Shown: positions 16,627-55,051 of the stretch, piece after piece
How the letters are laid out: each line of letters starts with the position of its first letter
How positions within the stretch are numbered: position 1 is the stretch's first letter
Assembly (NCBI GenBank): GCA_947570615.1
Contig: CANOVJ010000004.1
Location: 60,727 to 124,726 of the forward strand
Direction of reading: 5' to 3'
Source of the DNA: an uncultured Lachnospiraceae bacterium
GTDB lineage: Bacteria; Bacillota; Clostridia; Lachnospirales; Lachnospiraceae
Length of the DNA stretch: 64,000 bases
The notes under the pieces: model-generated
What the model was told of the DNA's origin: nothing
The model's database searches: none
Seen by the model: the letters and a program-made list of their open reading frames with translations, nothing else
Translations under genes and position numbers: made by a program

Positions 16627-16731
16627 AACATCATGATAATCATAAAAAATGTAATATAAACCCTGAAATTGTCGGATAAATTGTAATATAAACAAAAAAG
16701 ACCGTCATGAAAAATGTGGTTACGCCACGCA

Positions 16732-16865
16732 ATGGATGATCTGATTGCCTGGAAGGAAAGGCCTGACAGGAAGCCACTGGTATCGTTCCTGTGGAGGTGA
16801 AAGCCGAAGAAAATCTGCGGGCCAAAAGCCTGAAAGTCTGCTGTGAAAAATATAAGCCGGAAGCT
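16732..16865 (+). pseudogene. relic of a DUF4143-type AAA ATPase
   Basis: Two fragments in different frames. From 16732 the reading is MDDLIAWKERPDRKPLV, the usual opening of DUF4143-family ATPases just before their P-loop. From 16779 it is GIVPVEVKAEENLRAKSLKV followed by CCEKYKPE, close to the C-terminal end of the same family. Everything between, normally about 350 residues, is missing. The gap 16627-16904 between metK and the GNAT gene otherwise holds nothing recognisable. Identification rests on remembered family motifs; the close spacing of both ends of one family makes chance unlikely. Confidence 0.6.
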
Positions 16866-16904
16866 GATCAAACTGGATCAGGCAAAAAAAGAGCCTGCGA
16901 AGCA

Positions 16905-17429: not shown

Positions 17430-17431
17430 GA

Positions 17432-17959: not shown

Positions 17960-18450
17960 CTTTTCGCTCCTCTTCGGATTTCGTAGTGAATTCTCTCCCC
18001 GGCGTAGGGGGAGATGGGTTCCTCGCTTCTTTCCACAAACTGAAAGCCCGCGCTCTCATAGGTGTGCCGGGCGGGAACGCAGATCTCATTTGTCCAGACG
18101 GTGATCCGCTCCGGTTCCCGGGCCTTTATGCGCCTGACAGCCTCCTGCATCTGGCGTCTGCCATATCCCTTCCCCTTGTGCCTGGTGGAGATGCAGTTGT
18201 GCCCCACCTCGATTGATTCAGGCATGTTTGTAGGATTCCAGGTCACAAAGCCCACAGGCTCTCCCTCCAGGACGGTCATAAATCCGCAGGACTCGGCGAT
18301 CCGGGGATTATCATAAAAGAAGTCGTCAAACTCCTGCCATTGTCTGTTCCAGCCGCGTTCGAACTGCGGCTCGAAGGAATAGCCGTCCCTCAAAAGCGCA
18401 GCGAGGGTCCCGCGGGGGAACTCCGTTATTTTTCTGAATTCGATATCCAT
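17956..18450 (-). CDS. GNAT acetyltransferase
   Basis: A 164-residue acetyltransferase with the CoA pyrophosphate-binding loop RHKGKGYGRRQM and the usual C-terminal 'RHTYESAGF' segment. Target unknown. It is the first gene of the GNAT/kinase/GNAT operon; its stop overlaps the kinase start as ATGA. The region ahead of the ATG shows no good ribosome site. Its divergent neighbour is the AraC-type regulator, 209 bases away, which could regulate the operon. Confidence 0.82.
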   Translation of the reverse strand: MDIEFRKITEFPRGTLAALLRDGYSFEPQFERGWNRQWQEFDDFFYDNPRIAESCGFMTVLEGEPVGFVTWNPTNMPESIEVGHNCISTRHKGKGYGRRQMQEAVRRIKAREPERITVWTNEICVPARHTYESAGFQFVERSEEPISPYAGERIHYEIRRGAKR

Positions 18451-38117: not shown

Positions 38118-38132
38118 AAAGTCTGTATTTAT

Positions 38133-38227
38133 GGGCTGTCGCAAAACAGCAGATTCCTGCAATATATCGTGCCGATATTTTCAGATATCGGATCCGTATT
38201 GTAGAATTGCTGATTTTGCGACAGCCC
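38133..38227. repeat. 95-base near-palindrome (terminator or small mobile repeat)
   Basis: GGGCTGTCGCAAAA (38133-38146) and TTTTGCGACAGCCC (38214-38227) are perfect 14-base ends; inner parts also pair (CAGCAGATTC / GAATTGCTG, TGCAATA / TATTGTA). TTTTTAT follows on the plus side. It stands at the border between housekeeping genes and the accessory region. Terminal inverted repeats of this form occur in miniature transposable elements, but no clear target duplication is seen. Confidence 0.75.
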
Positions 38228-38262
38228 TGGTTTTTATATGTAAGGGGCGCAGGGAGGGGACA

Positions 38263-38771
38263 ATGCCAGGAATGATAAATACTTTGCCTGGACAGTATGT
38301 AGAAGAAGTGAAGAAAATTTATGGAGACAGGTTAAAGTCTGTTATCCTGTACGGCTCTTATGCCAGAGGCGATTTTGGACCGGATTCCGATATTGATATT
38401 ATGATTCTGGTAGATCTGGCAGATGCAGAGATCGAAAAATACAGTAAGCAGCTGTCATGGCTGACCTATGATTTCAACGAGGAACATGGCACGGACATTA
38501 AGCCCATGGAAAAGAGCGATTTGCAGTCAGCCGGGATTCTGCTGAGAGAAGGGGAATACAGAGGGGCCAATTTTAACAGGGATTATGTAAGGACGGAAAT
38601 TTTCCCCAAAACATTCGGGAGACGGATTGCGCGGGCGGAAGAAATCCGCCACGCCAGTGATTACGATGATTTTATATTGCTACAAAAGAAAAGGCGCAGG
38701 AACAGATTCTGACTGCGCAGGAGCTGATTGAGCAGACAGAGCTTTATTGTTTAAACAGACTGAAAGAGTAG
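38263..38771 (+). pseudogene. decayed MNT-HEPN toxin-antitoxin gene, fused and frameshifted
   Basis: The reading from ATG 38263 opens as an MNT nucleotidyltransferase (antitoxin): LYGSYARGDFGPDSDIDIMI has the GSx10DxD catalytic pattern. After KPMEKSDLQ it passes into HEPN-type sequence (AGILLREGEYRGAN, then FNRDYVRTEIFPKTFGRRIA and EIRHASDYDDF), which is normally the separate toxin gene. Pieces expected at the MNT end and in the HEPN middle are missing. At about 38676-38682 the frame breaks: shifting by one base restores ATKEKAQEQILTAQEL and a normal end at 38771, as if one T were lost from a T run; the unshifted frame stops at 38712. The toxin is probably dead. Confidence 0.75.
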
Positions 38772-38951: not shown

Positions 38952-40667
38952 ATGACCAGGACAACAGGGATCGGGCATCAGGATTTTCAAAAGATCAGGG
39001 AAAACAATATTTTCTACGTGGACAAAACAGATTTCATCAGAAGATGGTGGGAGTCAGGTGATGAAGTGACCCTGATCACCCGTCCGAGACGGTTCGGCAA
39101 GACCCTCAATATGAGTATGCTGGAAAAATTTTTCTCTGTCAGATATGCGGACAGAGGGGATTTATTTGAAGGGCTCAGGATATGGAAATGGGCATACAGG
39201 CGGATGCAGGGAACGTATCCGGTTCTTTTTCTGAGCTTTGCCGGAATTAAGGAGACTTCATATGAGGGAGCCAGGGAGAGTATCTGCCGGACGATAGAAG
39301 AGCAATATAACAGACATGATTATCTGCTTCACGGAGATTTACTGAATGAGAAGGAGAAGGCATTTTATCAGGAGGTTTCCGTGCATATGACGGACAGCGC
39401 AGCGGCGGTATCCCTGCGGTTTCTGGCGGATTTCCTGAACCGGTATTATGGAAAAAGGGTGATCATCCTTCTGGATGAGTACGATACGCCCATGCAGGAG
39501 GCCTACGTGAACGGATACTGGAAGGAGCTGACGGCCTTCACCAGAGGACTGTTTAACTCCACCTTCAAGACGAACCCCTGGCTGGAGCGCGCCATTATGA
39601 CAGGGATTACGAGGGTGAGCAGGGAATCGGTCTTTTCCGATCTGAACAACCTGGAAGTGGTGACGACAACTACGGATAAATACGAGGACTGCTTTGGCTT
39701 TACGCAGGAGGAGGTATCCACCGCATTAGAGGAATATGGCCTGTCCGAGCAGAAACAGCTGGTAAAGGACTGGTATGACGGCTTTTCTTTTGGAGAAAGG
39801 AGGGATATCTACAATCCCTGGTCGATCATCAATTTTCTGGAGAAAAGGAAGGCGGGGGCATACTGGGCCAATACCAGCTCCAACAGCCTTGTGGGGAAGC
39901 TGATCCGGGAGGGAAGCCCGGAAATTAAGAAATCTTTTGAATCCCTGATGCAGGGGGAGAGTATTCCAATGGAAATAGACGAGCAGATCGTCTACGACCA
40001 GCTTGCAGACGATGAGAGGGCAGTGTGGAGTCTTCTGCTTGCCAGCGGATATTTGAAGGTGAAAAGCTTTCAGGCATATATGACCGACTTTGGAGAGTGG
40101 AGACAGGAGTACGAACTGGAGCTGACTAATTTTGAGGTTCGTGTGATGTTTCGGGATATGGTGCGCAAATGGTTTGCCGGGGCGGCTTCCACCGGCTACA
40201 GCGACTTTATAAAGGCTCTGCTTCTGGGAGACTTAAAGGCAATGAATACGTATATGAATAAACTGACGTCGGAAATGTTCAGTTGCTTTGACACGGGAAG
40301 GAAGCCTTCGGAGCAGGAGCCGGAGCGGTTTTACCATGGGTTTGTGCTGGGACTGATGGTGGAGCTGGCGGATCGGTATGTGGTTACATCCAACCGGGAG
40401 AGCGGGTTTGGAAGATACGATGTGATGTTGGAACCGAGAAACATTCCTGCGGCAGCGCTGGCAGATGCTGTCATCATAGAGTTTAAGGTGCAGGATACCG
40501 GAGAAAAGGAGCTGACCGAAACGGTGCAGGAAGCTCTGCGTCAGATTGATGAGAAAAATTACAAAGCGGCGTTGGTGGCAAAGGGGATTCCGCAGGAGAG
40601 GATTCGCAGGTATGGATTTGCTTTTTGTGGGAAAAAGGTGCTGATCGGCGGGGGAGTGGAGGAGTAG
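38952..40667 (+). CDS. AAA-ATPase-like / PD-(D/E)XK nuclease-like protein
   Basis: A 571-residue protein of the family with an N-terminal AAA-ATPase-like domain and a C-terminal PD-(D/E)XK-like domain. Residues about 5-280 include DFQKIRENNIFYVDKT, the P-loop variant TRPRRFGKTLNMSML and Walker B VIILLDEYDTP. The C-terminal region (about 440-560) shows GFGRYDVMLEP and AVIIEFKV, fitting the nuclease D...ExK pattern. Many paralogues occur in gut Firmicutes and Bacteroidetes; their job is unsettled. Base composition is intermediate between the GC-rich genes and the AT-rich operon that follows, so it may be part of the same accessory region. The ATG is preceded by GAAGGAGAG. Confidence 0.88.
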   Translation: MTRTTGIGHQDFQKIRENNIFYVDKTDFIRRWWESGDEVTLITRPRRFGKTLNMSMLEKFFSVRYADRGDLFEGLRIWKWAYRRMQGTYPVLFLSFAGIKETSYEGARESICRTIEEQYNRHDYLLHGDLLNEKEKAFYQEVSVHMTDSAAAVSLRFLADFLNRYYGKRVIILLDEYDTPMQEAYVNGYWKELTAFTRGLFNSTFKTNPWLERAIMTGITRVSRESVFSDLNNLEVVTTTTDKYEDCFGFTQEEVSTALEEYGLSEQKQLVKDWYDGFSFGERRDIYNPWSIINFLEKRKAGAYWANTSSNSLVGKLIREGSPEIKKSFESLMQGESIPMEIDEQIVYDQLADDERAVWSLLLASGYLKVKSFQAYMTDFGEWRQEYELELTNFEVRVMFRDMVRKWFAGAASTGYSDFIKALLLGDLKAMNTYMNKLTSEMFSCFDTGRKPSEQEPERFYHGFVLGLMVELADRYVVTSNRESGFGRYDVMLEPRNIPAAALADAVIIEFKVQDTGEKELTETVQEALRQIDEKNYKAALVAKGIPQERIRRYGFAFCGKKVLIGGGVEE

Positions 40668-40944: not shown

Positions 40945-43404
40945 ATGGCGATAAGGATACCATGGGATAAATATGAAGCTGTGATTTTGCTGGATGCCTG
41001 CCAGGCAGTTATCGATAAAAAAATTTCGCAGACAGAGGCAGTTACAATGGTTTCAAGGAGCCTGAGAGATAGAGCGGTTAAAAATGGTAATGCAATTGAT
41101 TCCATGTATCGTAATGAGAACGGAATTTCTATGCAAATGAAAATAATGACATCACTTATTCAGGAGACACATTCAGGATTACATGGAGCTTCAAAACTAT
41201 TTGTTGAGATTGCAAAATTGTACAAAACAGATCAGCCACAATTTCACAAAATACTGGAAGAAGCAAAGAAAGATCAAGATATGACACTTTCGAATAAAGA
41301 AAAGTTTTACAAATGGCTTGACGGTTTTGCTCGTCCTTCTGATGTTTCGTATATCAGGAAATTTTGCGATTTAGTGGATACGTATAGTAAGAACAATAAA
41401 AAACTTGGTTTCTCAATATTTGAAGCAGATCAACCGTCGGATATTCACCGAGTGATAAAAGCAATTGAAAAGGATGTATTTTTCAGGGCCCAAAACGGAA
41501 GACAAATATATAAAATTGAAAAAGCCATAAATGAATACTATTTTTTCATGAGTAAAAACTATTCTCAAGCCGAGGATATTGAAAAAATTGAATCGAATGA
41601 AATCAGTGGTTGTCCTCTTTGTGATACGGAAGCGACTGTTTCCAAAAGCGAATTGCATCTTTCTGGAAAAGACGGTTTTTATAATTATTTGATAAATGAT
41701 GTAGGTGTTGCTTTAAGTACGGGCAGAAATTACGCATCACAGATAAACACTTGTGAAGCATATGCAACGAAACATTTTATTGGTACTGGAAAACTTTATC
41801 GCGCTCTTGATGACATTGAAGCTTGCGAAAATGCCCAATTACTTATGAAAGACTCTGGGTTTTTGCGATTCAGCCAACAGGCTCATAATGCACCCATGGC
41901 AGCACTTCGTAAATACAGTGAATATCTTAGTGGAACAGCCACGAAACGGGAGGACATATCTTATGAAATCCAGAAGAATTTTACAAAGGACGAAATTAAA
42001 CATTATAAGGAAATATTATTGAAAGAATATAGAAAAGGATTCCGACTGAATGACAGATTAAGCATTAAGAGATTACGTATGCAGTGGCAAATTTACTTTG
42101 GTGAGGAGCTTTTATATGATGATGATGAAATAGGCAGGCATATAGCAGATCTTACGATCCGTCATGGTGATATGGCATATCTTCCGGAAGTCATGCTCGA
42201 TGAGAATATAAAATATAAATTGTTACGATTTATTAAACGGTTATTTACAGAAGGAAAGACCGTAATATATTACCAGGCTCTGTATAAAGAATTCTATGAA
42301 GATTTTAAGTCTGGCAGAATCAACAACGTTGAAATGCTTAAAACTTATCTTGCATATATCAATGACGGACAAATTCACCTTGGCAGAAATTATATAGCGG
42401 CTAACAGCAATGTTCAAGTTGATAATGCAGAGGAAGTTCGTAACTTCCTGATCTCGCAGGGAACTGCGGTACGGACTGATGAGATTGTCTCATCACTTTC
42501 CCATATTGCCAGAGATAAAATTATAGGGACGATCACCGGTTCCAACAGTAATGAATTTATCAGAAACCAAAAAGGCGAATATTTTCATGCAGATATTATT
42601 GATTTCAGCCAGCATGAAATAGAGTTGATAACGGAATGGATTAGCCTTGCAATCGCTGAAAAGGAATATATGGGCGGTAAAGAGTTGACTGATGCCATCC
42701 AAAAGAAGTTGCCGTCTATTATGGAAAGATATCCCTTTCTGACATGGTTAGGGTTGCGCGATGTTCTTGCTTATAAGTTGTGCGATGTGTTTTCGTTTAA
42801 AGGAAAGATTATCAGTGCCCGCGGGCGAGATCTCTCTATGGCCGATATTTTTTCAAACTTTGCGAAAACGCATGACTATTTTACTCTGGCACAATTGAAT
42901 ATTTTAAAAAATGACTTAGATACTCCAATTTATTTTAATGAGGTTTATGCCAATTCATTACGTATTAACAAAGATGAATTCGTCGCGTCAGAACTTGCAC
43001 AGTTTGACGTGTCTGCCACCGATACTGCAATTGATCAGTTTTGCCACGGTGATTTCGTGAGTATAAGGGATGTGTCTCTCTTTGGGGGATTCCCAAATGC
43101 TCTTTATCCGTGGAACCATTTTTTACTACAGCATTATGTTTCCCATTATAGTAAGAAATATCAGTTGCTTCACGCAGGATTTAATGCTGATATTCCTGTC
43201 GGGGCAATTGTTAAAAGAAGCTCTCAGATGAATACGTTTGACGATATTATTGTAAGAGCTCTGGCGGATAGTGGTATTCGTCTGAATGATGATGAAGCCT
43301 TACAGTATTTGCAAAATGCTGGATATTTGGCTCGACGAAGATATGGTAATCTTGAAGATCTTCTTGCTAAAGCAAATCAGTATAGGAAAAATAAAGGAGA
43401 ATAA
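40945..43404 (+). CDS. large protein of unknown function heading the BREX operon
   Basis: An 819-residue soluble protein that I do not recognise as a named family. The N-terminal segment (about 1-65, IPWDKYEAVILLDACQAV and ENGISMQMK) resembles a domain I have seen in other Clostridial accessory proteins. A Cys pair lies at 223/226 (GCPLC). Residues about 240-330 (LSTGRNYASQINTCEAYA, HNAPMAALRKYSEYLSG) loosely recall the SAM-like DNA-binding arm of tyrosine recombinases. The C-terminus (IIVRALADSGIRLNDDEALQ, YLARRRYG) may be a helix-turn-helix. Inference: a DNA-binding or target-recognition factor. The start at 40945 follows AAAAAGGG; the stop is 6 bases before brxP. Confidence 0.8.
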   Translation: MAIRIPWDKYEAVILLDACQAVIDKKISQTEAVTMVSRSLRDRAVKNGNAIDSMYRNENGISMQMKIMTSLIQETHSGLHGASKLFVEIAKLYKTDQPQFHKILEEAKKDQDMTLSNKEKFYKWLDGFARPSDVSYIRKFCDLVDTYSKNNKKLGFSIFEADQPSDIHRVIKAIEKDVFFRAQNGRQIYKIEKAINEYYFFMSKNYSQAEDIEKIESNEISGCPLCDTEATVSKSELHLSGKDGFYNYLINDVGVALSTGRNYASQINTCEAYATKHFIGTGKLYRALDDIEACENAQLLMKDSGFLRFSQQAHNAPMAALRKYSEYLSGTATKREDISYEIQKNFTKDEIKHYKEILLKEYRKGFRLNDRLSIKRLRMQWQIYFGEELLYDDDEIGRHIADLTIRHGDMAYLPEVMLDENIKYKLLRFIKRLFTEGKTVIYYQALYKEFYEDFKSGRINNVEMLKTYLAYINDGQIHLGRNYIAANSNVQVDNAEEVRNFLISQGTAVRTDEIVSSLSHIARDKIIGTITGSNSNEFIRNQKGEYFHADIIDFSQHEIELITEWISLAIAEKEYMGGKELTDAIQKKLPSIMERYPFLTWLGLRDVLAYKLCDVFSFKGKIISARGRDLSMADIFSNFAKTHDYFTLAQLNILKNDLDTPIYFNEVYANSLRINKDEFVASELAQFDVSATDTAIDQFCHGDFVSIRDVSLFGGFPNALYPWNHFLLQHYVSHYSKKYQLLHAGFNADIPVGAIVKRSSQMNTFDDIIVRALADSGIRLNDDEALQYLQNAGYLARRRYGNLEDLLAKANQYRKNKGE

Positions 43405-43410
43405 GGTATT

Positions 43411-45741
43411 ATGTACTCATACGATTATGATGCTGAGACAGGAGGTATAATACTAAATTCATCTTCCCTGCCATTTAGTATGGAGCCGAGGCCAGTGTAT
43501 TTTAAAGAATTAGATATACTTGGTTTTGATCGTTATTGGAATTATGAGAAAAGTGATATTTATCCATATATGTGGGCAGAGGCTAATAACTATTATTATC
43601 GTGGGAGAAAGGTGGCTCAGACGAAAGGAGGCTCATGTTATACTGCTCCGGAAATAATAATATTGGACGAACCAGAGCCAAATGGCCATCCACTACGCTT
43701 TGTTGATATTGCGGGTATGGTTGAAAAGAGCAGGGAATTACTGGAAGCCTTGGTTCAGGATACTATTAAGTGTACTTATAATACGTATATTAAATATAAA
43801 GACAGGGTTGATATTTTTCATGTTTCTTATAGTGGAGGAAAAGATAGCGAAGTTACTTTTGATATTGTTCAAAGAGCTTTACCACATAATGAATTTGTGG
43901 TTGTTTTTGGGGATACGGGAATGGAGTTCCCGGATACCTATATAGCGATAGAAGAAACAAAAAAATTTTGTTTAAAAAATAAGATAGAATTTTATACAGC
44001 ACGTTCAAAGTTTAACCCGTTAGACTCCTGGCAAATATTTGGACCTCCCTCCTCTGCAATGCGATGGTGTTGTGGTGTTCATAAAACAGCCCCGCAACTC
44101 TTGAAAATTCGAGAGATTGCGGGTAAAAATGATGTTCGGGAAATGGCATTTGTTGGAATACGAAGTGCTGAAAGTCTAAGACGAAATGGATATGATTATG
44201 TGTCTTTAGGGACGAAACATAGTGGTCAGCGTAGCTATAATCCTATCTTGGATTGGAATTCTGCTGAGGTCTATATATATATATTTATGCGAGGGTTAAC
44301 TATTAATGAAGCATATAAAAAAGGAAGTAGCCGGGCGGGCTGTCTTTTTTGTCCAATGGCTGCACTCCGCAGTGACTTCTTTAACTATGCTCTCTATCCC
44401 TCTCAGGTTCAACCATATATGAGCATAATTAAGAATCTGTACACAGAAGGCCATTCGAATCCTCAGTTGGCAAGCTCATATGTAGAAAACAAAGGCTGGA
44501 AGGCAAGAAAAAACGGCAGAGATTTTTCTATAGGAATTGGTGATTTCGAAGAAGAAACCAGAGATTCAAAGAGAGTTGTGAGCTTTAAGCCAAAAAACGA
44601 TTCATGGAAGGAGTGGTTAAAAACTGTCGGTTGTTTAGAGTATACTGAAACGGATGGTTCTATTACGATAGAAGACAATCTAATTATTCGTTTCCATATA
44701 AGGAAGTTAACTGATGGATATATAAGATTTATTTTTGATGAGAATGATGCAAAAAAAAATCCCACTATTTTTAAAAATATTAAGAATGCAATGAAAAAAA
44801 GCCATAGTTGTGTAGGGTGCCGATATTGCGAGGCTAATTGCCCAAATGGAAATATCAACTTTGTAAATAATACGGTGAAGATTGCAGATTCATGTATAAA
44901 ATGTGGTTTATGTAATAATATTGACAACGGTTGTCTGGTGTATAATTCATTAATTTTACCGAAAGGAACAGGAACAATGAGAACAGGAAGCATTGATGAG
45001 TACGGGACACATCCTCCCAAAATGGAATGGATGAAGGATTTTGTTGAACTTAAGGAGGACTTTGAGTTAAAGTGTAAGTATAACAAACCTATGGTGTCTA
45101 TGTTTAAACGATTTTTAAGGGATGCGGGGATTACCTGTGCAAATAATTCATTTGCTCCCCTGGCAAGTATACTCTTTTCTCATGGAGTAGAGAATGATGT
45201 AGTCTGGGCGCTTATGTTTGATAATTTAGCTTATGCGCCGCAAGTAGGATGGCTGATAGATAACCTTCAGTTTAATACTTGTTATACGCAAACTGAAATA
45301 AAGGATACTTTGAGCTCTTATATTACTTCGAAAACGGGTCCGTCTAATATCACCAACAGCTATAAAAAGATGTCTGAACTGCCACTGGCGAATGTGGGTT
45401 TTGGACGTGTTATTTCTAATAGCAAAGATGGTTTTGGATTTATACGCTCTCCCTGGCAGAATCCTGATCCCCGCGTAATTCTTTACTCTCTTTTTAAATT
45501 TGCAGAGGCTTGTGGAGGGTATTATCAGTTTACTTTAGGCAGACTGCTAAATCATGATATTGACAGTGATGGTGTCAGTCCCACGCAGATTTTTGGACTT
45601 GACAGGGAACAGATGGAAAAGATTTTGACGGGTCTTTCAATTAATTATCCGGAATTCATTAATGCGTCTTTTACACATGACCTTGATAATATTACGCTAC
45701 GTAGTGATAAAACTGTTCAGGATGTCCTGAGCTTATTTTAG
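43411..45741 (+). CDS. brxP: BrxP-like PAPS-reductase/sulfurtransferase with Fe-S clusters
   Basis: A 776-residue enzyme. Residues about 130-330 are an ATP-pyrophosphatase/PAPS-reductase fold, the one used by DndC, with the P-loop SGGKDS at 141-146, FGDTGMEFPDTY, RWCCGVHK and a CxxC at 311/314. Residues about 465-510 hold two ferredoxin-like cluster sites: CVGCRYCEANCP (467, 470, 473, 477) and CIKCGLC...C (495, 498, 501, 508). The C-terminal 230 residues resemble a DUF4007-type helical domain (weak call). brxP is the marker gene of type 4 BREX. It plausibly activates or transfers sulfur, perhaps onto DNA; this is inferred from DndC likeness and the desulfurase in the operon. Confidence 0.88.
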   Translation: MYSYDYDAETGGIILNSSSLPFSMEPRPVYFKELDILGFDRYWNYEKSDIYPYMWAEANNYYYRGRKVAQTKGGSCYTAPEIIILDEPEPNGHPLRFVDIAGMVEKSRELLEALVQDTIKCTYNTYIKYKDRVDIFHVSYSGGKDSEVTFDIVQRALPHNEFVVVFGDTGMEFPDTYIAIEETKKFCLKNKIEFYTARSKFNPLDSWQIFGPPSSAMRWCCGVHKTAPQLLKIREIAGKNDVREMAFVGIRSAESLRRNGYDYVSLGTKHSGQRSYNPILDWNSAEVYIYIFMRGLTINEAYKKGSSRAGCLFCPMAALRSDFFNYALYPSQVQPYMSIIKNLYTEGHSNPQLASSYVENKGWKARKNGRDFSIGIGDFEEETRDSKRVVSFKPKNDSWKEWLKTVGCLEYTETDGSITIEDNLIIRFHIRKLTDGYIRFIFDENDAKKNPTIFKNIKNAMKKSHSCVGCRYCEANCPNGNINFVNNTVKIADSCIKCGLCNNIDNGCLVYNSLILPKGTGTMRTGSIDEYGTHPPKMEWMKDFVELKEDFELKCKYNKPMVSMFKRFLRDAGITCANNSFAPLASILFSHGVENDVVWALMFDNLAYAPQVGWLIDNLQFNTCYTQTEIKDTLSSYITSKTGPSNITNSYKKMSELPLANVGFGRVISNSKDGFGFIRSPWQNPDPRVILYSLFKFAEACGGYYQFTLGRLLNHDIDSDGVSPTQIFGLDREQMEKILTGLSINYPEFINASFTHDLDNITLRSDKTVQDVLSLF

Positions 45742-45752
45742 GAGGGGTTACA

Positions 45753-48700
45753 ATGTTTGAAAAATACCGTGACTATTTTGATATTGATCCAGAGTATTTC
45801 CCACAGGTTAATGAAGATATTATAAATAATAAACCAGATCATTGGAAGAAATTTTATCCACATGCGACTTTTGTACATCTTCTTAAGGACACGATTAATA
45901 TTCTTTCACGTAAGCAGAAGGTGTCTCTGTGGGTGGAAGGTGCCTATGGAACGGGTAAGTCTCATGCAGTATTGACGCTTAAAAAACTCCTCGAGGCTTC
46001 GGAAGAAGATACCAGGCAGTATTTTGACAGGTTCAGTGATCAACTGAGCAACGATCTATTTAACAGCATCCAACAGCTAAAAAACAGCGAACAGAAGATT
46101 TTAACTGTACATCGTTATGGTTCATCCAATATTCATGGTGATGGAGATCTTGTCTTTGCAATTCAGGAAAGTATTTCTAATGAGCTGGTTTTTGCAGGTC
46201 TTCAGGGTGGAAATAATGCCTTAAAGGATTCTGCTATTAAGTGGCTTTCCCAGGACTGGGCAAAGCATATGTTTAATGAGCTTATTAAATCGGAATATGC
46301 AGGCATCTTTGGTGGAGATGATGTGGATAGTATCATTTCTCATCTGAACACTTATTCAGGGGAGGCACTAAAGGAACTGATGAGCAATATTATGCGTGTC
46401 GGTAAAGAGAAGCAGTTTTTAGCGCTTACAATGGATGATAATGGGCTCGTCGAATGGATTAAGGAAGTCATCAGAGAAAATAATCTAAAGGCAATCGTAT
46501 TCATCTGGGATGAGTTTACGGAATATTTCCGCAATAATATGAAGAATTTGACAGGCTTCCAGAAAATTGTTGATGTAAGTGGAAATGATCCATTTTATAT
46601 GGTTGTAGTTACACATAATGTTACCCATATCTTCTCAGAGAATGATAAGGACTGGAAAAAAATTATGGGCAGGTTTATGCAGCCGATCTGTAATATTGAG
46701 CTTCCTGAAAACATGGCATTCCGTCTTATGGGAGAGGCTATGGAAGAAAGCAAGGACACGGCGGTTCAGAATGATTGGAGAGAGACCCGCGGGATTCTCT
46801 ACGAGAGGACGAATGATTCGAGGCAGCTTGTAAAAAATAAAGCTGGGATCAGTGATGATGAGCTAAAGAAAATACTTCCTATTCATCCTTATGCTGCTCT
46901 TTTGCTAAAACATATTTCGTCTGCGTTTGATTCCAATCAGAGAAGTATGTTTGACTTTATTAAGAATGACAGGGGGGATGAAATTAAAGGATTTCAGTGG
47001 TTTATTGACAACTGTGGCCCGCTTGACGAAAATCCTCTGCTAACGATTGATATGCTGTGGGACTTTTTCTATGAAAAAGGAAAAGAATTTCTTTCTCGTG
47101 ATATCAGAGCTATTTTGGACTGCTACTCGTTTGCTGCAAGTAAGCATCTTAACAAAGAAGAACAACGCGTATTAAAAACTGTTCTTCTGCTACAGGCAAT
47201 CTCGCAGAAGACAGGAGACTCTGTTGAGCTGTTTGTTCCTAATGAACATAATCTGAACAACGCATTCGAGGGTTCTGATTTAGAGAATGATGAGGCATCA
47301 CGTATTGCGAACAGGCTAATTTCGGAGATGATCCTCTTTAAAAAACCTGTGTCGGGCGGAAAAACGCAGTATTCTGCATTAATTAATTCGGCCAATACCG
47401 CGGAACTGGAAAAAGAAAAAGACAGGCAGCGCCAAAAGGCAACTTCGCAACTTTTGCAGGAAACAGATATTGAGTCGGCATTTGCTCTCAGTGGCGCGTT
47501 GCGTTTACGTTATGAGTTGCGTTTTGTATCCAGATCGGACTTCAAAACAATAATTAATACGCTTAGAGCACAGGAGGAGTCTTTTGGAAATAAGATTATT
47601 GCTGTTGTAACTTTCGCGAAAGATGATGCTGAAAGTGTTGAATTAGGAAGAATGATAAATGATGCACTCGCTGATGGAAGTTATCATATGATTTTTATTG
47701 ATGCTTCTACCAGTCCGCTCGGTAAGGATTTACTGGAGCAATATGTTGAGGCTATGGCCAATTCTGTTGTTAATCTTAAACAGGACAGGGGACTTGCAGC
47801 CCAATATGATTCCAATGCAAAGGAGGTTTTGAAGAAATGGCGCGGAAGGATTACGGATGGTGAGTTTCTTGTTTATAATTCTGAAAAGAAGGATGGAGAA
47901 CGTGCAAATAACATTGACCAGCTTTATACTTATTTAGAGCGTTTTAACAGAGCAAAATATCCGGAAGGCTTGGAAACAGGGAAGTCTGTAAATGCGACTA
48001 TGTGGCAGGCCACATCTCTTCCAGCAGGCGTTGAATGTGGTGCAAGGCAGAGCGTTTCCGGTCAGTTTCGTTCTGCCAATCCACAGACGAAACTTGAGAA
48101 CTTTATTGGTAATAATGCATGGATGGAAGACAGATACTGGATAAAGGAACCTTACCTTCCGATTTCAAAGATAAAAATAGAACTTAATAAGTTGATAGAT
48201 GCCGCATTTAACGCGCAGGGGCAGATTTCGATAAAAAAAATTTACAATTTTTTCAAGGACAAGGACGGCAGATATGGTTTCATGCCGTGCAATTTGACGG
48301 CCTTTGTAATGGGGTTTTTACTCAAGGAATACACAGATGGTACATATAACTGGACAGACGGTATCCATAACGAACCATTAACCATTGATAAATTGAAAGA
48401 GATGGTTGCCGAGATTATTAAAAATGAGAACACCCCAGTACCTCGCTACAGGGATAAGTTCATTAGTACGATGAAGCCGGAAGAAAAAGCGTTCAATGAG
48501 GCAGCTTCCAGAATATTTAAGATACCGCTCAATCTGTGTGTCTCTGCTGAAAATACGCGGGACAGAATTCGTCAGAAAATGAAAGACTGGTCTTTTCCGA
48601 TTTGGGTATTGAAATATAACCTGTCTGAAGCAAAATTCCGGACATCTTCTGAGAAGGTATCAGATCTTATTGACAGTTTTAGTGGTATTGCAAACAACAG

Positions 48701-49955
48701 TAATTTTGGGACAGTAAGGACGGACAAAGAAATTGCCATTGCTATAGGTAGGTTATGCATCGATAATCCCGGAGTTGTCGATGATGTGGAATCTCTTGCC
48801 AATGCAGAAAAGGTATCCGAGGGTATGGATTGCTATTTGCATTTGTATGCTGATGGTGAGTTAATATCTCTTGCGGAGAAAGTAGGTGATAATGGCCAGT
48901 ATATCAACCGCTTAAGGGACAAGTTTAAGGTGGATGCCGCAAACTGGGTATGGAATGTGGATACAGCGAATCAGAAAATCAATGAGGTTATTATTGAATA
49001 TAAGATAATTATAGAGAGTAATAAGATTCTCCCGAAAAATACTGCTTTTGATCCTACGATTCGTGAGTGGTGTGACCGTTGTGGACTTATTCGTATTTCG
49101 TATCTTTATGCATGCAATTATTGGGATGATTTGTCAGACTTTATGGAATTGCTTTATAACATAAAGAAGTCGGGAAACTTGTCTGATTCTAAACGAGAAA
49201 CCTTCTTAGAGCAATTAGTAGTTAATGGAAGAACATTTAATAATTTTTATAATAATCAGACAGAACTGTTCAGGAAATGCTGCTCTTTTGTATTGGAGAG
49301 ATTCAGTGGTGAGGAAGTGAAAGAAATATTCAGATTGCTTTCAGGCGATTTATTTACAGCCGAAAAATCAGGCTATCAGGCTGCAGTCGAAAATGCTGTT
49401 AATAAATATGTAAGCGAGCAGGGGGCCGAGAAGCTTAAAAGGTTTTGGAAAGAAAAAACAGGATCGGAATCTCCTCGATCCTGGTCAAAAGCGCACCGTA
49501 CACCTGTTTTGTGCTTGGTTGATGATAAAGATGTTCAAACCGCAAAAGTTGCGTTTGGTGTGTTAAATAAAAAACAGCCTGATGCTGCATCTGTTGATAA
49601 GGCAAGGGATTTTCTTGAAAATGCCACTTTCTTTAGTGGGCTATCTGATAGCGAAGCTGTTGATGCCGCATTTCGCACATCTATTGTCAAATCATATAGT
49701 GTGATGCTTGATGACTTAGATGAAGTACGCTCCCGGTTGGAGAACGTGATGGCCGTAGATGTTTATGATTGGTTTGGATTGCCCGAGGTTGATAAGAAAC
49801 TTCATGAGATGGCGGAATATAAATATAACCAGTTCGGGTGTGACAGAGCTCTCGAAAAGATTGACGATATGGATGTTGCAGATGTTAAACAATATCTGAA
49901 AAAACTTATTCGTGACAATATGATTGTCGGAATGGAGATTATAAAAGGAAAGTAA
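45753..49955 (+). CDS. brxC: BrxC/PglY-type large P-loop ATPase
   Basis: A 1400-residue ATPase. Walker A GAYGTGKS is at 63-70 and the Walker B strand IVFIWDEF has Asp253-Glu254. The remainder is mostly helical with no further motif that I can name. Size, P-loop position and its place next to pglZ fit the BrxC/PglY (DUF499-related) component found in BREX systems. In those systems it is required for defence and is thought to assemble with PglZ; its reaction is not settled. A TAGGAGGGG ribosome site precedes the ATG, 11 bases after brxP. Confidence 0.88.
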   Translation: MFEKYRDYFDIDPEYFPQVNEDIINNKPDHWKKFYPHATFVHLLKDTINILSRKQKVSLWVEGAYGTGKSHAVLTLKKLLEASEEDTRQYFDRFSDQLSNDLFNSIQQLKNSEQKILTVHRYGSSNIHGDGDLVFAIQESISNELVFAGLQGGNNALKDSAIKWLSQDWAKHMFNELIKSEYAGIFGGDDVDSIISHLNTYSGEALKELMSNIMRVGKEKQFLALTMDDNGLVEWIKEVIRENNLKAIVFIWDEFTEYFRNNMKNLTGFQKIVDVSGNDPFYMVVVTHNVTHIFSENDKDWKKIMGRFMQPICNIELPENMAFRLMGEAMEESKDTAVQNDWRETRGILYERTNDSRQLVKNKAGISDDELKKILPIHPYAALLLKHISSAFDSNQRSMFDFIKNDRGDEIKGFQWFIDNCGPLDENPLLTIDMLWDFFYEKGKEFLSRDIRAILDCYSFAASKHLNKEEQRVLKTVLLLQAISQKTGDSVELFVPNEHNLNNAFEGSDLENDEASRIANRLISEMILFKKPVSGGKTQYSALINSANTAELEKEKDRQRQKATSQLLQETDIESAFALSGALRLRYELRFVSRSDFKTIINTLRAQEESFGNKIIAVVTFAKDDAESVELGRMINDALADGSYHMIFIDASTSPLGKDLLEQYVEAMANSVVNLKQDRGLAAQYDSNAKEVLKKWRGRITDGEFLVYNSEKKDGERANNIDQLYTYLERFNRAKYPEGLETGKSVNATMWQATSLPAGVECGARQSVSGQFRSANPQTKLENFIGNNAWMEDRYWIKEPYLPISKIKIELNKLIDAAFNAQGQISIKKIYNFFKDKDGRYGFMPCNLTAFVMGFLLKEYTDGTYNWTDGIHNEPLTIDKLKEMVAEIIKNENTPVPRYRDKFISTMKPEEKAFNEAASRIFKIPLNLCVSAENTRDRIRQKMKDWSFPIWVLKYNLSEAKFRTSSEKVSDLIDSFSGIANNSNFGTVRTDKEIAIAIGRLCIDNPGVVDDVESLANAEKVSEGMDCYLHLYADGELISLAEKVGDNGQYINRLRDKFKVDAANWVWNVDTANQKINEVIIEYKIIIESNKILPKNTAFDPTIREWCDRCGLIRISYLYACNYWDDLSDFMELLYNIKKSGNLSDSKRETFLEQLVVNGRTFNNFYNNQTELFRKCCSFVLERFSGEEVKEIFRLLSGDLFTAEKSGYQAAVENAVNKYVSEQGAEKLKRFWKEKTGSESPRSWSKAHRTPVLCLVDDKDVQTAKVAFGVLNKKQPDAASVDKARDFLENATFFSGLSDSEAVDAAFRTSIVKSYSVMLDDLDEVRSRLENVMAVDVYDWFGLPEVDKKLHEMAEYKYNQFGCDRALEKIDDMDVADVKQYLKKLIRDNMIVGMEIIKGK

Positions 49956-49967
49956 GGAGTCAAAGAT

Positions 49968-52256
49968 ATGAAACTTGAAGACTGCATAAAACGAATAGAT
50001 AAATATATGCACTCCAGTGATTTTCATCCCCGGCTTGTTAATGTACAAAACAGCGAAGACATGAATTCAATATGTTCTCATTTTAAAGTAGGAACAACGG
50101 TATTTAAAGATGTAGCAGACTATGCTAACTTTGACGAGAATCCATCAGAGTCCGCTCTCTTTAATGACTTGAGAAATCTGTCCGGTAACATATTTATAAC
50201 GGGATTTTCAACTTTCTATAAAATTCTGGGAGAACAGAAATTAAGAGAGTTATTGAAGAAACTTGTTTCATTTACGGGTTCAAATCTTCATGTTATTTTT
50301 ATGTGCTATCAGTGCGTTAAACAGTTAAGTTTCGATGATATCCGCTATAAAAACTGGGTATATTTTGTGGACGGAATTACAGGAATTAAAACAGGACTTG
50401 TTTTTTCGCCTCCGGCGATTCCAATGTTAGACGGTTTCATTTTTACTGATGGAATACAACGTTTTGCCTCGGTGGTTGAACAGTCAGCGCCATCAACTCT
50501 ACATGTTAAAACAGGAAAAAGAAAAAGAGATTATATGTATTCTATCGTGGATATTTCAGAGCAGCGTGATGCTTATACCCTGCTCTGCTCCATTGATTCA
50601 ATGACAGATCTATTATCTGAATCCTATGGTGATGCGTCCCAATGGGAGTATGCTTTGAATGCAATTAAGGGTGATACTTCCTGGGTTGCTTATGCGACAA
50701 AAATGTTCGGAGGGATTTATACCTTGGATTTGTCTCTTTCGAAGTGGAGAGCATTTGATGAAAATAGAAGGTGGATATATTTCCTTTTACTTAAAATGTT
50801 TGGGGCACCGAACAGTTGGTGTTTGAATACTGCTGCTGAGAATGCCTCCTGTCCAGATGATATTATCACAGAGATTTATCAGGGAATCCTTCAGGTGTCT
50901 CATTTGGAGGATAAATTCTGGGAACGATATAATGAACGGAAATATACAATATCTATTATTGGAAAACAATATTTGGAAATGTCAGATTATTGTGACTGGG
51001 CGTTGTCAAAAGGCAGGGATGCAATTTATTATCTGACGGATATGTCGGTAAGAGAGATTAATCTGATTTTTAAGTTGCTGAATAACTATCGGGAAGAATA
51101 TGCAAAAGATGAGGTAATGATGATACTCAGCCATATATACCCCGCTCTGTATCAATATCTTCAGCCCTATGATTATAAGAATGAATTGCTAAATAAATAC
51201 TTCGATGCTTATAAATATCAAAAGGTTATCAACTTTATATTTCCCGATTTTTTTACACTTGTTGAAGAGCAGGCAGTTAAAAGAGATTATAATTTTCTTT
51301 TGCCGTCCCGAAGTGAAAAGACAGAATGTATTGATGTGAACAAAACAATTGTATATTATATTGACGCTTTAGGGGTTGAGTATTTGTCATTTATCATGGC
51401 TCAATGTAGAAAATATAACCTGATAGCGTACACAACGTTATGCCATTGTGAAATTCCTTCCATAACCTGTAAAAACAAAGATTTTATCGAGGTCTTTGAA
51501 AAAAAGGGGGCAGTTTTTGCAAAAGACAGAAATGGGATAAAGGCTCTCGATGATATTAAGCATCATGGAGAGGAGGACTTTGACTTTACAAAGAATGAGT
51601 TGCCTACTCATCTGGCAAGGGAATTGCAGATAATTTCTGAGATTATTGAGCATGCTGTGTCTCAACTACAGAAATTTGACAGAGTAGTCCTGATTTCTGA
51701 TCATGGATCAAGCAGGTTGTGCGTGATCAGAAAAAAGGAAAATAAGCATGAAATGGCCACGAAGGGCATTCATTCTGGAAGATGTTGCCCAAAATCCGAA
51801 AGCGATGTACAACCAGAATGTGCTATTGATGGCGATGATTTTTGGGTACTTGCAAACTACGATCGCTTTAAAGGGGGAAGGCTTGCTAATGTTGAAGTTC
51901 ATGGCGGGGCAACGTTGGAAGAAGTTGTCATTCCCATTATTGAAATTACCAGAGCGACTTCTGATTACGAATTTAAGATGCTTACTGACAAAATAACTTT
52001 CAGCAGGAGAAAAAAGGACGCAGAAATCCAGATATATTCAAAACTGAAAATAGATGGCATAACAGTACGTATTTCTCGCATTGATCGTGTTCTTTCTGCA
52101 ACTTCCAGTGATGGACATACCTTTATTATTACCATTCCGGAGATGAAAGCCTCCGGTACATATTCGGTAGATGTATATCTGATGGAGAATCTGATTAAGA
52201 GTGGACTAACGTTCCGTGCTGATAACAGTGATTTTAAGGAAAAGAAGTTATTGTAA
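49968..52256 (+). CDS. pglZ: PglZ, alkaline-phosphatase-superfamily BREX protein
   Basis: A 762-residue protein, the common component of all BREX types. The N-terminal 440 residues are mixed helix and strand. The C-terminal part has the metal-site pattern of the alkaline phosphatase superfamily: Asp466 in YYIDALG, Asp578-His579 in ISDHGSS, and His645 in VHGGATLEEVV. PglZ relatives have been reported to be metal-dependent nucleases or phosphodiesterases, though their role in BREX is unclear. The ATG follows AAGGAGTCAAAGAT, 12 bases after brxC. Confidence 0.9.
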   Translation: MKLEDCIKRIDKYMHSSDFHPRLVNVQNSEDMNSICSHFKVGTTVFKDVADYANFDENPSESALFNDLRNLSGNIFITGFSTFYKILGEQKLRELLKKLVSFTGSNLHVIFMCYQCVKQLSFDDIRYKNWVYFVDGITGIKTGLVFSPPAIPMLDGFIFTDGIQRFASVVEQSAPSTLHVKTGKRKRDYMYSIVDISEQRDAYTLLCSIDSMTDLLSESYGDASQWEYALNAIKGDTSWVAYATKMFGGIYTLDLSLSKWRAFDENRRWIYFLLLKMFGAPNSWCLNTAAENASCPDDIITEIYQGILQVSHLEDKFWERYNERKYTISIIGKQYLEMSDYCDWALSKGRDAIYYLTDMSVREINLIFKLLNNYREEYAKDEVMMILSHIYPALYQYLQPYDYKNELLNKYFDAYKYQKVINFIFPDFFTLVEEQAVKRDYNFLLPSRSEKTECIDVNKTIVYYIDALGVEYLSFIMAQCRKYNLIAYTTLCHCEIPSITCKNKDFIEVFEKKGAVFAKDRNGIKALDDIKHHGEEDFDFTKNELPTHLARELQIISEIIEHAVSQLQKFDRVVLISDHGSSRLCVIRKKENKHEMATKGIHSGRCCPKSESDVQPECAIDGDDFWVLANYDRFKGGRLANVEVHGGATLEEVVIPIIEITRATSDYEFKMLTDKITFSRRKKDAEIQIYSKLKIDGITVRISRIDRVLSATSSDGHTFIITIPEMKASGTYSVDVYLMENLIKSGLTFRADNSDFKEKKLL

Positions 52257-52269
52257 GGGAGGCATTCAG

Positions 52270-53727
52270 TTGACCAGTAAATTGAGAGAACACTTTGAAG
52301 AGATGGTTGTTTATAAAGATCTTAAAGAGATGAGTTTCTTAAAAACTTTAAAGCTCCCATCCTTTTTGCGTGATTGGGTATTAAAAAAATTTGAGGACGA
52401 GGCAGGGAGTTTTGATACAGAAGAACTTCTTGATTTTGTTAATACATATATGCCGCGTAAAGAAGATTGGATAAGTATAAAGGAACGTATTATCACAAGA
52501 TTTGAGCGAGTTAAGTTGCTGACAAAGATCACAATAGATATTAGCATCAGAACCGGAGAGGTGTCATTCTCACTTCCTGAATTTGGTTTAGAAAGCAAGG
52601 AAACTATTATTGAATCGCATATTTGGGATAATGTTAAAGATGAATTAGTCAAAGGTACCGATATCTGGGGAGTTGTTGAATTAGGCTATCGTCCGCCTGA
52701 TGATACTGCAAAGCCAAAGATTCCTGGAAAAATCAGGTTAATGGATTTTTCAAGTTTTTGTCCATATGATACCGAGCTGGAATTTTATAAAGATGTTCGA
52801 TCAGAGTTTTCGATTTCAGAATGGATTGATATTCTGCTCGGAGCAATAGATTACAATGCGGCAGGATACAACGGTGATGAACATGGCAAACTTGCAATGC
52901 TTAAACGATTGCTTCCTTTTGTGGAAAAAAATCTGAATATCATTGAGTTAGCGCCTAAAGGGACGGGGAAATCTTATGTATTTGGAAATGTAAGCAAATA
53001 TGGCCTGTTGACTGATGGGGGTAAAGTGACCCGAGCCAAAATGTTTTATGATACTGCAAGGAAAATGTCGGGATTCATTATAGGGCATGATTACGTGGCA
53101 ATTGATGAGGTTAAGCTGGTTCAATTTGGTGATATTAATGAAATGCGTTCTGTTATGCAGGGTTACATGGAAAGAGGACGATGTGAAGTTAACGGGCATG
53201 AAGTAGTTTCGGATGCGGGAGTTGTATTTCTTGGTAATATTGAATCTGATAATATGGATGAGTACAAGAATATGTTTACTGAATTACCAGCGCTGTTTAA
53301 AGAAAGTGCTCTTGTAGACCGAATGCATGGATTTATAAAAGGGTGGGAAATACCGCCTATGAGGCCAGGACTAAAAATATCGGGATGGGCATTAAATACA
53401 GAATATTTCTGTACAGTTCTCCATCTTCTTCGCGATGATATGAGTTATCGGGCAATTGTTGATCAGATTGTTGAAGTATCTGACGGCGCATATGAACGAC
53501 ATGTAGAAGCTGTAAAGCGACTAACCACAGCTTATTTAAAATTGTTTTTTCCGGATGTACGTTCCGGAGAAGATATAAATAAGCAATTATTTTTGAATTA
53601 CTGTCTGCGTCCCGCAGTAAAAATGCGTTCAATTGTACAGCGTCAATTAGAAATACTCGACCCCAAAGAATACAGGAAGGAAGATAAGCAAATGCCAACT
53701 TTCAGTCTCAGGAAGGAATATCAATGA
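52270..53727 (+). CDS. brxL: BrxL-type AAA+ ATPase without the Lon protease domain
   Basis: A 485-residue AAA+ protein. Walker A APKGTGKS is at 228-235, Walker B AIDE ends at 279-280, followed by FLGNIESDN (sensor region) and RMHGFIKGWEIPPM. These match BrxL. Type 1 BrxL is about 690 residues and ends in a Lon-like domain; this one stops at about the point where that domain would begin. BrxL proteins bind DNA as barrel-shaped oligomers. The start is TTG at 52270, 7 bases after AAGGGAGG; a longer frame from 52216 lies inside pglZ. Confidence 0.88.
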   Translation: MTSKLREHFEEMVVYKDLKEMSFLKTLKLPSFLRDWVLKKFEDEAGSFDTEELLDFVNTYMPRKEDWISIKERIITRFERVKLLTKITIDISIRTGEVSFSLPEFGLESKETIIESHIWDNVKDELVKGTDIWGVVELGYRPPDDTAKPKIPGKIRLMDFSSFCPYDTELEFYKDVRSEFSISEWIDILLGAIDYNAAGYNGDEHGKLAMLKRLLPFVEKNLNIIELAPKGTGKSYVFGNVSKYGLLTDGGKVTRAKMFYDTARKMSGFIIGHDYVAIDEVKLVQFGDINEMRSVMQGYMERGRCEVNGHEVVSDAGVVFLGNIESDNMDEYKNMFTELPALFKESALVDRMHGFIKGWEIPPMRPGLKISGWALNTEYFCTVLHLLRDDMSYRAIVDQIVEVSDGAYERHVEAVKRLTTAYLKLFFPDVRSGEDINKQLFLNYCLRPAVKMRSIVQRQLEILDPKEYRKEDKQMPTFSLRKEYQ

Positions 53728-53921
53728 AAAGGATTTGTATAAGTTGTGGTTCGAGTAATCTCGATAAGGATGCTATAGGAATAAACAAAAAGTTGTTGGG
53801 TGAAGGAATAGAAAAAATTTATTGTATAGATTGTCTGGCAAGTTATTTAGATACCACAGTTGATGAATTAAATGATAAAATCGAGGAGTTTAAGGAAGAT
53901 GGATGTAGGTTATTTGAATAA
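53724..53921 (+). CDS. 65-residue CxxC protein (zinc-ribbon or rubredoxin-like)
   Basis: A tiny acidic protein starting MKRICISCGS. Cysteines at 5 and 8 (CISC), and 34 and 37 (CIDC), are spaced to bind one metal ion; a fifth is at 61. Between and after them are short helices (DTTVDELNDKIEEF). It overlaps the brxL stop as ATGA and precedes the desulfurase by 14 bases, so it is translated with them. Possible roles are electron or sulfur delivery to BrxP, a scaffold for Fe-S cluster assembly, or a zinc ribbon. No family could be named. Confidence 0.75.
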   Translation: MKRICISCGSSNLDKDAIGINKKLLGEGIEKIYCIDCLASYLDTTVDELNDKIEEFKEDGCRLFE

Positions 53922-53935
53922 GGTTGGGATATAAA

Positions 53936-55051
53936 ATGATTTATGCAGACAATGCCGCAACAACAAAACTTGATAGCGATGCTTTTGAAGCAATGTATTC
54001 ATATTTGATGGATCAATATGCAAATGCTTCGCAGCTATATTCTTTTTCCAGGGGGGCTAAATCAGCATTAAAGGAAGCTCGACAAACAATTGCCAGGTGT
54101 ATTGATGCCGAACCAGAAGAAATTTATTTTACATCTGGCGGTACTGAAAGTAATAACTGGGCAATTAAGGGCAGTGTAGATCCAGATAATCTCCAGACCA
54201 TTATAACATCTGAATTTGAGCATCATGCAGTTCTTTATGCATGTAAACGTATAGAGTCCTGGGGGTATCCGGTAAAATATCTCCATCCGTCAAAAGATGG
54301 TTTTGTTACCCCTGAAATACTTGACAGCATCATTACTGATAGCACGAAACTTGTTTCTGTAATGATGGTAAATAATGAGATTGGTACGATTCAACCGATT
54401 AAAGAATTGTGCGAAGTTGCCCATCAGCATAAGGCATTTTTTCATACAGACGCTGTGCAGGCGCTGGGGCACATTGATATAAATGTAAGAGATTTAAATG
54501 TAGACATGTTATCCTGTTCAGCTCATAAGTTTAATGGACCTAAAGGCATTGGATTTCTTTATATAAAAGGAAAGACTCCATTGTTGCCTTATGTAGATGG
54601 TGGCGCACAGGAATTCGGTATGCGTGCAGGTACAGAAAATATAGCGTCTATTATCGGAATGGCTGTTGCGTTATCCAAGAGTGTGGCTACGATAAATAAT
54701 ACTTGTGTTCATTTACGTAAGTTGGAGCAAATTATATTGCAAAGGCTATTTTCTGCAGGAGTTGATTTCATCAGGAATGGTGCAGAGCCATATAATCCGG
54801 GAAATCTCAGTCTTTCTTTTAAGGGAGTCGAAGGGGAAATGTTGCTACATCGATTGGATTTGATGGGGATTATGGTGTCTACAGGGTCAGCATGCGATAG
54901 TAAAAAGACACAAATTTCTCATGTGCTAAGAGCGATTAAAGCTGATGAAAAATATGCTCGGGGGACGATCCGTATTTCCCTTGGACGGGATAACACCTCT
55001 GATGAAGCAGTAAAAATTGCAGAGGCGCTAATCAAACTTTTGATAGGATAA
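53936..55051 (+). CDS. cysteine desulfurase, IscS/DndA-like
   Basis: A 371-residue PLP enzyme that takes sulfur from cysteine as a bound persulfide. Visible residues: His97 (EFEHHAV), Asp172 (HTDAVQ), the PLP lysine K198 in SAHKFNGPKGIG, and the persulfide cysteine C320 in STGSACDS. The loop around the cysteine fits the NifS/IscS/DndA group. As last gene of the BREX operon it could supply sulfur to BrxP for the Fe-S clusters, for DNA phosphorothioation as DndA does, or both. The start is ATG 53936; an in-frame TTG at 53924 is possible. Confidence 0.9.
   Translation: MIYADNAATTKLDSDAFEAMYSYLMDQYANASQLYSFSRGAKSALKEARQTIARCIDAEPEEIYFTSGGTESNNWAIKGSVDPDNLQTIITSEFEHHAVLYACKRIESWGYPVKYLHPSKDGFVTPEILDSIITDSTKLVSVMMVNNEIGTIQPIKELCEVAHQHKAFFHTDAVQALGHIDINVRDLNVDMLSCSAHKFNGPKGIGFLYIKGKTPLLPYVDGGAQEFGMRAGTENIASIIGMAVALSKSVATINNTCVHLRKLEQIILQRLFSAGVDFIRNGAEPYNPGNLSLSFKGVEGEMLLHRLDLMGIMVSTGSACDSKKTQISHVLRAIKADEKYARGTIRISLGRDNTSDEAVKIAEALIKLLIG

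Follow-up and report, generated by a model that had tools for sequence, protein, structure and literature searches.

How could a defence operon that encodes no methyltransferase mark the DNA of its host, and which of its products would recognize the site? The question is raised by a type 4 bacteriophage exclusion (BREX) operon in a 64,000-nucleotide stretch of contig CANOVJ010000004.1 (the window) from an uncultured Lachnospiraceae bacterium. Seven collinear, same-strand open reading frames (ORFs) occupy positions 40945-55051, all of them open and closely spaced: the first four lie 6, 11 and 12 bases apart, the next two junctions overlap slightly, and 14 bases precede the last ORF (Table 1). 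PADLOC, Pfam and NCBIfam were used to name the families and identified five of the genes as BrxP, BrxC, a type-4 PglZ, BrxL and a DndA/SspA-like cysteine desulfurase; the other two encode a small zinc-ribbon-like protein (the zinc protein) and a large protein that we call HEAD. We consider it probable that this operon serves in phage defence, belongs to a type 4 BREX branch that bears a desulfurase and marks DNA with sulfur, HEAD being a putative reader of the DNA or its mark and the zinc protein a candidate partner. Sulfur marking by type 4 BREX and its association with a desulfurase are already in print in the available text of two papers (PMC12839542, PMC11931770) and are not new. The observation is sound, but both the system and its pairing with a desulfurase were known before; the interest lies in HEAD and the zinc protein.

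In the available text, Type-4 BREX is described as DNA-phosphorothioation-based, a cysteine desulfurase is counted in 255 of 457 taxa with the system, a small zinc-finger gene is stated to accompany it often, and DUF4007 is equated with SspB (PMC12839542); brxPCZL is listed as one of three phosphorothioate-making gene families, with citation of Yuan et al. (PMC11931770, available text). The window operon shares with the former description BrxP with DUF4007, BrxC, type-4 PglZ, BrxL, the desulfurase and the small zinc protein, but it differs in that HEAD is not named there and in that the zinc protein here tracks the system and not the desulfurase. HEAD goes unmentioned in the type 4 BREX section of that paper, whose main text, as available, contains neither 'integrase' nor 'recombinase'. 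A literature search returned no other paper on HEAD; a mention in supplements, figures, Yuan et al. or Goldfarb et al. 2015 is possible.

An earlier note on this DNA had placed the core brxP-brxC-pglZ-brxL, in that order, in an AT-rich operon. The family matches bear this out, as does a G+C content of 0.36-0.41 (2-kb windows, 41 to 55 kb) against 0.51-0.60 across most other window DNA; because of this difference the operon was probably acquired horizontally. In the PADLOC search that the note had suggested for type 4 BREX, all four core proteins were matched strongly. It had also stated that a methyltransferase is lacking, and none was found in the six larger ORFs with PADLOC, Pfam and NCBIfam or in the 65-residue ORF with Pfam and PADLOC; the operon is free of PglX, as expected for type 4 BREX. 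BrxC carries the Walker A motif GAYGTGKSH, PglZ scores 358 bits against NCBIfam BREX_PglZ_4 (cut-off 140) with its conserved phosphatase-like motifs intact, and BrxL combines BrxL_N with an ATPase domain, its true start probably lying slightly downstream of the start of the GTG ORF. Elsewhere, type 4 BREX loci with broken genes do occur (L049, and L183 of genome G678), and such decayed copies would fit a window operon that has fallen silent or decayed and leaves the DNA of this strain unmarked; with seven open frames and intact conserved residues, we regard this as very improbable here.

Comparisons were drawn from several samples. The named loci (n = 60) were found by a search with the window's own BrxP; the phylum loci were found through PglZ_4 in 398 genomes of the phylum, 14 of which, own genome included, were positive; among the family loci (n = 12), three of the 8 that bear HEAD probably duplicate named loci; and a control set comprised 20 stretches around other PAPS-reductase-like genes, 15 of which match BrxP minus its C-terminal part. 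One of the closest known systems outside BREX is SspABCD, with which the operon shares an SspA-like desulfurase, an SspC-like ATPase (best E 1.3e-23 for BrxC), an SspD-like PAPS reductase and an SspB-like DUF4007, but PglZ and BrxL set it apart and the BrxC and BrxP models far outscore those of SspC and SspD. PglZ, BrxL and HEAD were not found in the 15 control stretches whose PAPS reductases match the shortened BrxP. For the two of these given to PADLOC, the BrxP model ranked first (278 and 258 bits), ahead of SspD; both had an SspA-like desulfurase and one had SspC (4.1e-112). DndABCDE shares a DndA-like desulfurase and a weak similarity of DndC to BrxP with the operon, whose seven ORFs, however, gave no match to DndB, DndD or DndE.

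BrxP is the presumptive site of sulfur chemistry. Its PADLOC match spans residues 1-775 of 776, and in an alignment of 53 sequences (the window plus named loci with BrxP of at least 700 amino acids) the PP-loop SGGKDS at 141-146 is invariant. The earlier note had described a PAPS-reductase-like protein with two Fe-S cluster sites. Both ferredoxin-type sites (C467/470/473/477 and C495/498/501/508) are invariant in 53/53, so this part stands, but a third probable site was missed. Thirteen cysteines are invariant altogether, namely the eight ferredoxin-type ones and those at 187, 220, 221, 311 and 314; C187 lies outside all of these sites, and position 701 is a cysteine in 52/53. C220/C221 and C311/C314 align with the CC and CxxC of the APS reductase structure 2goy, whose cysteines there we take to be its [4Fe-4S] ligands, and because of this alignment BrxP probably has a third, APS-reductase-type Fe-S site (CC...CxxC), making three predicted clusters rather than two. 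The DUF4007 trait of type 4 BREX, often fused to BrxP, is present at the C-terminus of the window BrxP at E 0.002, below Pfam's cut-off; at E<=0.1 it was matched in 6 of 15 BrxP members, the window included (best 7.3e-6). Loci L144, L146 and L151 have a stretch of about 700 bases between brxP and brxC with an extra small ORF, perhaps a separate DUF4007 gene. Distant BrxP records are scarce in plasmids (2) and phages (4); BREX-4 genes were seen on IMG/VR contigs L226-L229, and MT835511.1 encodes at 16015-18288 a BrxP relative that is 42% identical.

The desulfurase that closes the operon matches PADLOC DndA (E 9.7e-126) and SspA (E 2.4e-125) and retains the persulfide cysteine, as the earlier note had said: C320 (GSAC), like the lysine K198 (SAHK motif), is kept in 40/40 aligned desulfurases. 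Of the 44 named loci that were evaluable, 39 have it no more than 400 bp behind brxL; L020, L030, L032, L043 and the broken L049 lack it. Among the phylum loci it is present in 2 of 12 evaluable ones (own not counted) and in G446, on a split contig. In a tree built by a quick method from 88 rows (46 from BREX-4, 13 near Ssp-like genes and 29 others, with a long-branch warning for outlying rows), all 46 BREX-4 desulfurases formed one group (SH-aLRT 84; sub-groups 100 and 99) spanning Bacillota, Bacteroidota, Spirochaetota and Mycoplasmatota, and the 13 from Ssp-like stretches made up a group of their own. A statistical link between desulfurase and brxP, a test set in advance by the earlier note, is therefore strong within the window's branch but weak phylum-wide. 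Because the BREX-4 desulfurases group together and are near-constant in this branch but rare among phylum loci, the desulfurase appears to be a dedicated component that accompanies a single branch and that much of the remaining type 4 BREX lacks; it is a frequent accessory and not a defining part of the system. Alternatively, it could provide sulfur for assembling the BrxP Fe-S clusters, or for general use, with housekeeping desulfurases supplying the sulfur of the mark. The twelve invariant BrxP cysteines at probable Fe-S sites, the missing operon desulfurase of 10/12 phylum loci, and the three or four desulfurase genes of the own 4.05-Mb genome (five matches, two being adjoining pieces) would suit this explanation, but the close operon linkage and single-group phylogeny in the branch that keeps the gene argue against it, and we consider it unlikely; cluster maturation and sulfur donation to DNA are in any case not mutually exclusive.

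The earlier note had referred to the zinc protein merely as a CxxC gene. Of 45 named loci, 44 have it (L049 being the exception), and its gene never lies more than 150 bp from where brxL ends. It was also found in 7/7 evaluable family loci and 8/13 phylum loci, but not in L143, L144, L146, L148 and L153. In the four family loci without the HEAD core, its gene sits at one of two other places in the operon, the brxP-brxC junction or the pglZ-brxL junction. All 11 strong matches (E <1e-26) in the 398 genomes come from BREX-4 genomes: ten of these carry PglZ_4, and the operon of the eleventh, G678, is broken; the protein thus occurs in 10/14 PglZ_4 genomes versus 1/384 others (Fisher p 4e-16), the four without it being G555, G645, G693 and G701. 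Because of this distribution, and because four named loci keep the zinc protein without a desulfurase, it follows type 4 BREX more than the desulfurase.

All 57 distinct zinc proteins from BREX loci end in G-C-x-[L/F/Y]-F. This fifth invariant cysteine, and the retention of the protein in desulfurase-free loci, would be explained if the zinc protein were a sulfur relay whose C-terminal cysteine receives a persulfide from any desulfurase and passes it to BrxP. Eight weaker family matches lie outside BREX loci in the 398 genomes, however, one of them in G513. Of the seven whose neighbours were inspected, those of the own genome, G458, G531, G462 and G614 adjoin a GWNSWNTF-type gene, presumably a glycoside hydrolase, and those of G774 and G476 do not; three of the five paralogues beside such a gene have the same tail as the BREX protein and two have G-N-C-x-L-F. 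We know of no sulfur chemistry associated with GWNSWNTF-type genes. A relay role is marked down because the paralogues share the tail and because the tail is ordered in the structural model (predicted local distance difference test score, pLDDT, 91), with no flexible arm; the protein's absence from 5/13 phylum loci also speaks against it, and we consider it quite improbable. The zinc protein is probably a structural partner of the complex. It had no significant match in PHROGs (0.011). A second copy of the zinc-ribbon family, with the same GCxLF tail, lies at 40190-40378 of G000 contig C5 (L176:5191-5379), directly after a GWNSWNTF-type gene and among sugar-metabolism-like genes; four other genomes show a comparable pairing.

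The earlier note had passed over the identity of the 821-residue first gene inside the span it described. At E<=0.001 HEAD had no match in Pfam, NCBIfam or PADLOC; it matched nothing significant in PHROGs (0.13) and, in sequence and profile searches, no solved structure significantly (best E 0.36); at a looser limit it gave Phage_int_SAM_1 at E 0.071. A homologue stands before brxP in 59/59 evaluable named loci, at a median gap of 6 bases (-53 to 168). The HEAD core was found ahead of brxP in 8/12 family loci and 6/12 phylum loci, in one of the latter with an intervening ORF before brxP. Among the four family loci without it, L095 and L099 have at that position a different, weakly related protein (hhalign 48%, E 1.9e-4), and L092 and L094 have no protein of HEAD size there. 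The 8 strong core matches in the 398 genomes all belong to BREX-4 loci and fell in seven PglZ_4 genomes and on one contig that ends inside brxP (Fisher p 9e-11). Four contigs of a viral collection (IMG/VR) carry the core, three continuing into brxP and one ending in HEAD; it was not found in plasmids, and HEAD was not found in the 20 control stretches.

The AlphaFold model of HEAD has a mean pLDDT of 90.1, about 95 in the core, and about six helix-wing units can be read from its secondary structure at 348-757. Iterated profiles place segments 118-203 and 242-329 in one domain family; Phage_int_SAM_1 was matched in 3/50 HEAD members (best 6.7e-7) and HARE-HTH in 1/50. In a census of 56 proteins (window included, four fragments dropped), SAM-like copies numbered 0 in 13, 1 in 18, 2 in 22, 3 in 2 and 4 in 1, some low counts possibly reflecting contig-end cuts or missed starts. 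Length varied from 485 to 1418 residues (median 823.5), the matched core mostly measuring 454-469. From its predicted fold and the weak domain matches, HEAD is probably a DNA-binding protein. Between L013 and L015, whose BrxP proteins are 95% identical, a block of about 230 residues nonetheless differs in the middle of HEAD. That HEAD might be a fast-evolving specificity gene was considered, but divergence is not decisive: HEAD has a median best-segment identity of 32.6% to the window protein, nearly matched by PglZ (37.1%), with BrxP at 49.1%. Nor did the HEAD linkers behave as unrelated swapped domains, since 39 segments of at least 100 residues formed 9 clusters, one of which holds 27.

Relatives of the HEAD core also occur outside BREX-4: four genomes together gave five weak matches (E 4e-9 to 1e-4), three of them at loci L231, L232 and L233. 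With filters off the core profile found all three (54.5, 36.5 and 24.2 bits), and with default filters at E 0.001 only L232. PADLOC identifies PbeC in L231 (3.9e-278) and L232 (5.6e-226) and PbeA in L232 (3.4e-243); the layout of L233 is similar. The core aligns with the large L232 protein at an hhalign probability of 87% (E 3.7e-6, 357 columns). These large proteins stand ahead of the Pbe-like genes, and a Sigma70_r4 match was seen in the two that were scanned. They matched no PADLOC Pbe model, and MzaA weakly. Because pbeB and pbeD encode 66 and 152 amino acids in the available text of PMC6459918, the large protein comes from a gene outside the described set of four. PbeABCD is reported there to depend on phosphorothioation, pbeAC to occur frequently without dnd genes, and the Pbe genes to act in the exclusion of unmarked virus and not in marking. 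The window operon shares with such loci the HEAD core but differs in its marking genes, and its seven ORFs gave no match to the PbeA helicase or the PbeC ATPase.

Because the core recurs in Pbe-like loci, and this system is phosphorothioation-dependent in the available text (PMC6459918), a role for HEAD in reading DNA or its mark is the most economical guess. The same relatives could be taken differently: HEAD might be a phage sensor or a regulator of the operon rather than the target-recognition subunit of marking, and three features would suit this reading, which we consider less likely than not: modules that vary in number and a length that varies too, as sensor proteins show, the position as first gene, and the excluding role of the Pbe genes. 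The several predicted DNA-binding modules count the other way, as does the lack in type 4 BREX of any other obvious target-recognition gene besides DUF4007, judged from general knowledge and the available text of PMC12839542. Our best guess remains that HEAD would be the DNA-recognition subunit.

Several results weigh against a sulfur-marking operon in which HEAD reads the DNA. The named loci were collected with the window BrxP and so are biased to, and overstate, its branch. The desulfurase, absent from 5/44 named and 10/12 phylum loci, is not generally required. HEAD is not universal either, its core being missing from 6/12 phylum and 4/12 family loci and from a Methanosphaera plasmid BREX-4, in which the zinc protein and desulfurase were likewise not found. 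The core shows no detectable relation to DUF4007 (hhalign 0.6%), and the reader role is drawn from a predicted fold (predicted template modelling score, pTM, 0.55) and weak domain matches, the window HEAD passing no Pfam cut-off.

In the mechanism that we favour, the desulfurase would take sulfur from cysteine and form a persulfide on C320. BrxP, with its PP-loop, three probable [4Fe-4S] sites and SspB-like DUF4007, would activate the DNA backbone phosphate and insert the sulfur, giving phosphorothioate. That brxPCZL forms phosphorothioate is taken from print, and the sulfur route in this strain, like the order of reaction steps, is what we infer from the genes present. BrxC would act as a DNA-loading ATPase, and PglZ and BrxL would then act on unmarked DNA. 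HEAD would most likely read DNA sequence, the mark, or both through its SAM-like and winged-helix-like modules, and the zinc protein would probably be structural. The suggestion that host DNA is marked by sulfur, made from the operon alone before, is probably right in view of the phosphorothioate assignment of type 4 BREX in the available text of PMC12839542 and PMC11931770.

Directly before the operon lies a gene with AAA-ATPase_like and PDDEXK_9 domains (38952-40667), a relative of which precedes HEAD in 1/60 named loci (L056). A small nucleotidyltransferase-domain protein (38104-38712), with weak likeness to the MntA antitoxin and HalB, adjoins lysS. A comparison made to locate a clean insertion site of the operon gave no clear one: in the four same-genus relatives that carry the nitroreductase gene, lysS and that gene are on separate contigs.

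Table 1. Genes of the operon and domains of HEAD (window positions; residue numbers for domains)
Feature	Position	Strand	Remarks
HEAD	40945..43404	+	819 aa from ATG 40945; 821 aa from GTG 40939; first operon gene
HEAD domains	NT 4-108; SAM-like 118-203 and 242-329; core 354-817		Predicted from AlphaFold and profiles; core of about six helix-wing units
brxP	43411..45741	+	PADLOC BrxP, E 1.9e-236
brxC	45753..49955	+	PADLOC BrxC, E 5.8e-276; large P-loop ATPase
pglZ (type 4)	49968..52256	+	PADLOC PglZ, E 1.1e-79; NCBIfam BREX_PglZ_4
brxL	52216..53727	+	PADLOC BrxL, E 5.6e-196; GTG ORF
65-aa zinc-ribbon-like protein	53724..53921	+	CxxC...CxxC and invariant C-terminal G-C-x-[L/F/Y]-F
Cysteine desulfurase (NifS/DndA/SspA-like)	53936..55051	+	TTG ORF from 53924; PADLOC DndA/SspA

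We tentatively propose that HEAD may be an undescribed core subunit of a large type 4 BREX branch, a modular DNA reader made of 0-4 integrase-type SAM-like domains and a near-constant core of tandem winged-helix-like units, which would set or read the phosphorothioate site. Through the Pbe-like loci it would be common to two phosphorothioate-linked defences, and swapping its N-terminal modules would direct the mark to other sites. Sulfur marking of DNA is reported for type 4 BREX, yet the system has no methyltransferase carrying a target-recognition domain, and HEAD is a direct candidate for the choice of site. The zinc protein, retained where the desulfurase is lost, is a second component of the system that the desulfurase alone leaves unexplained.

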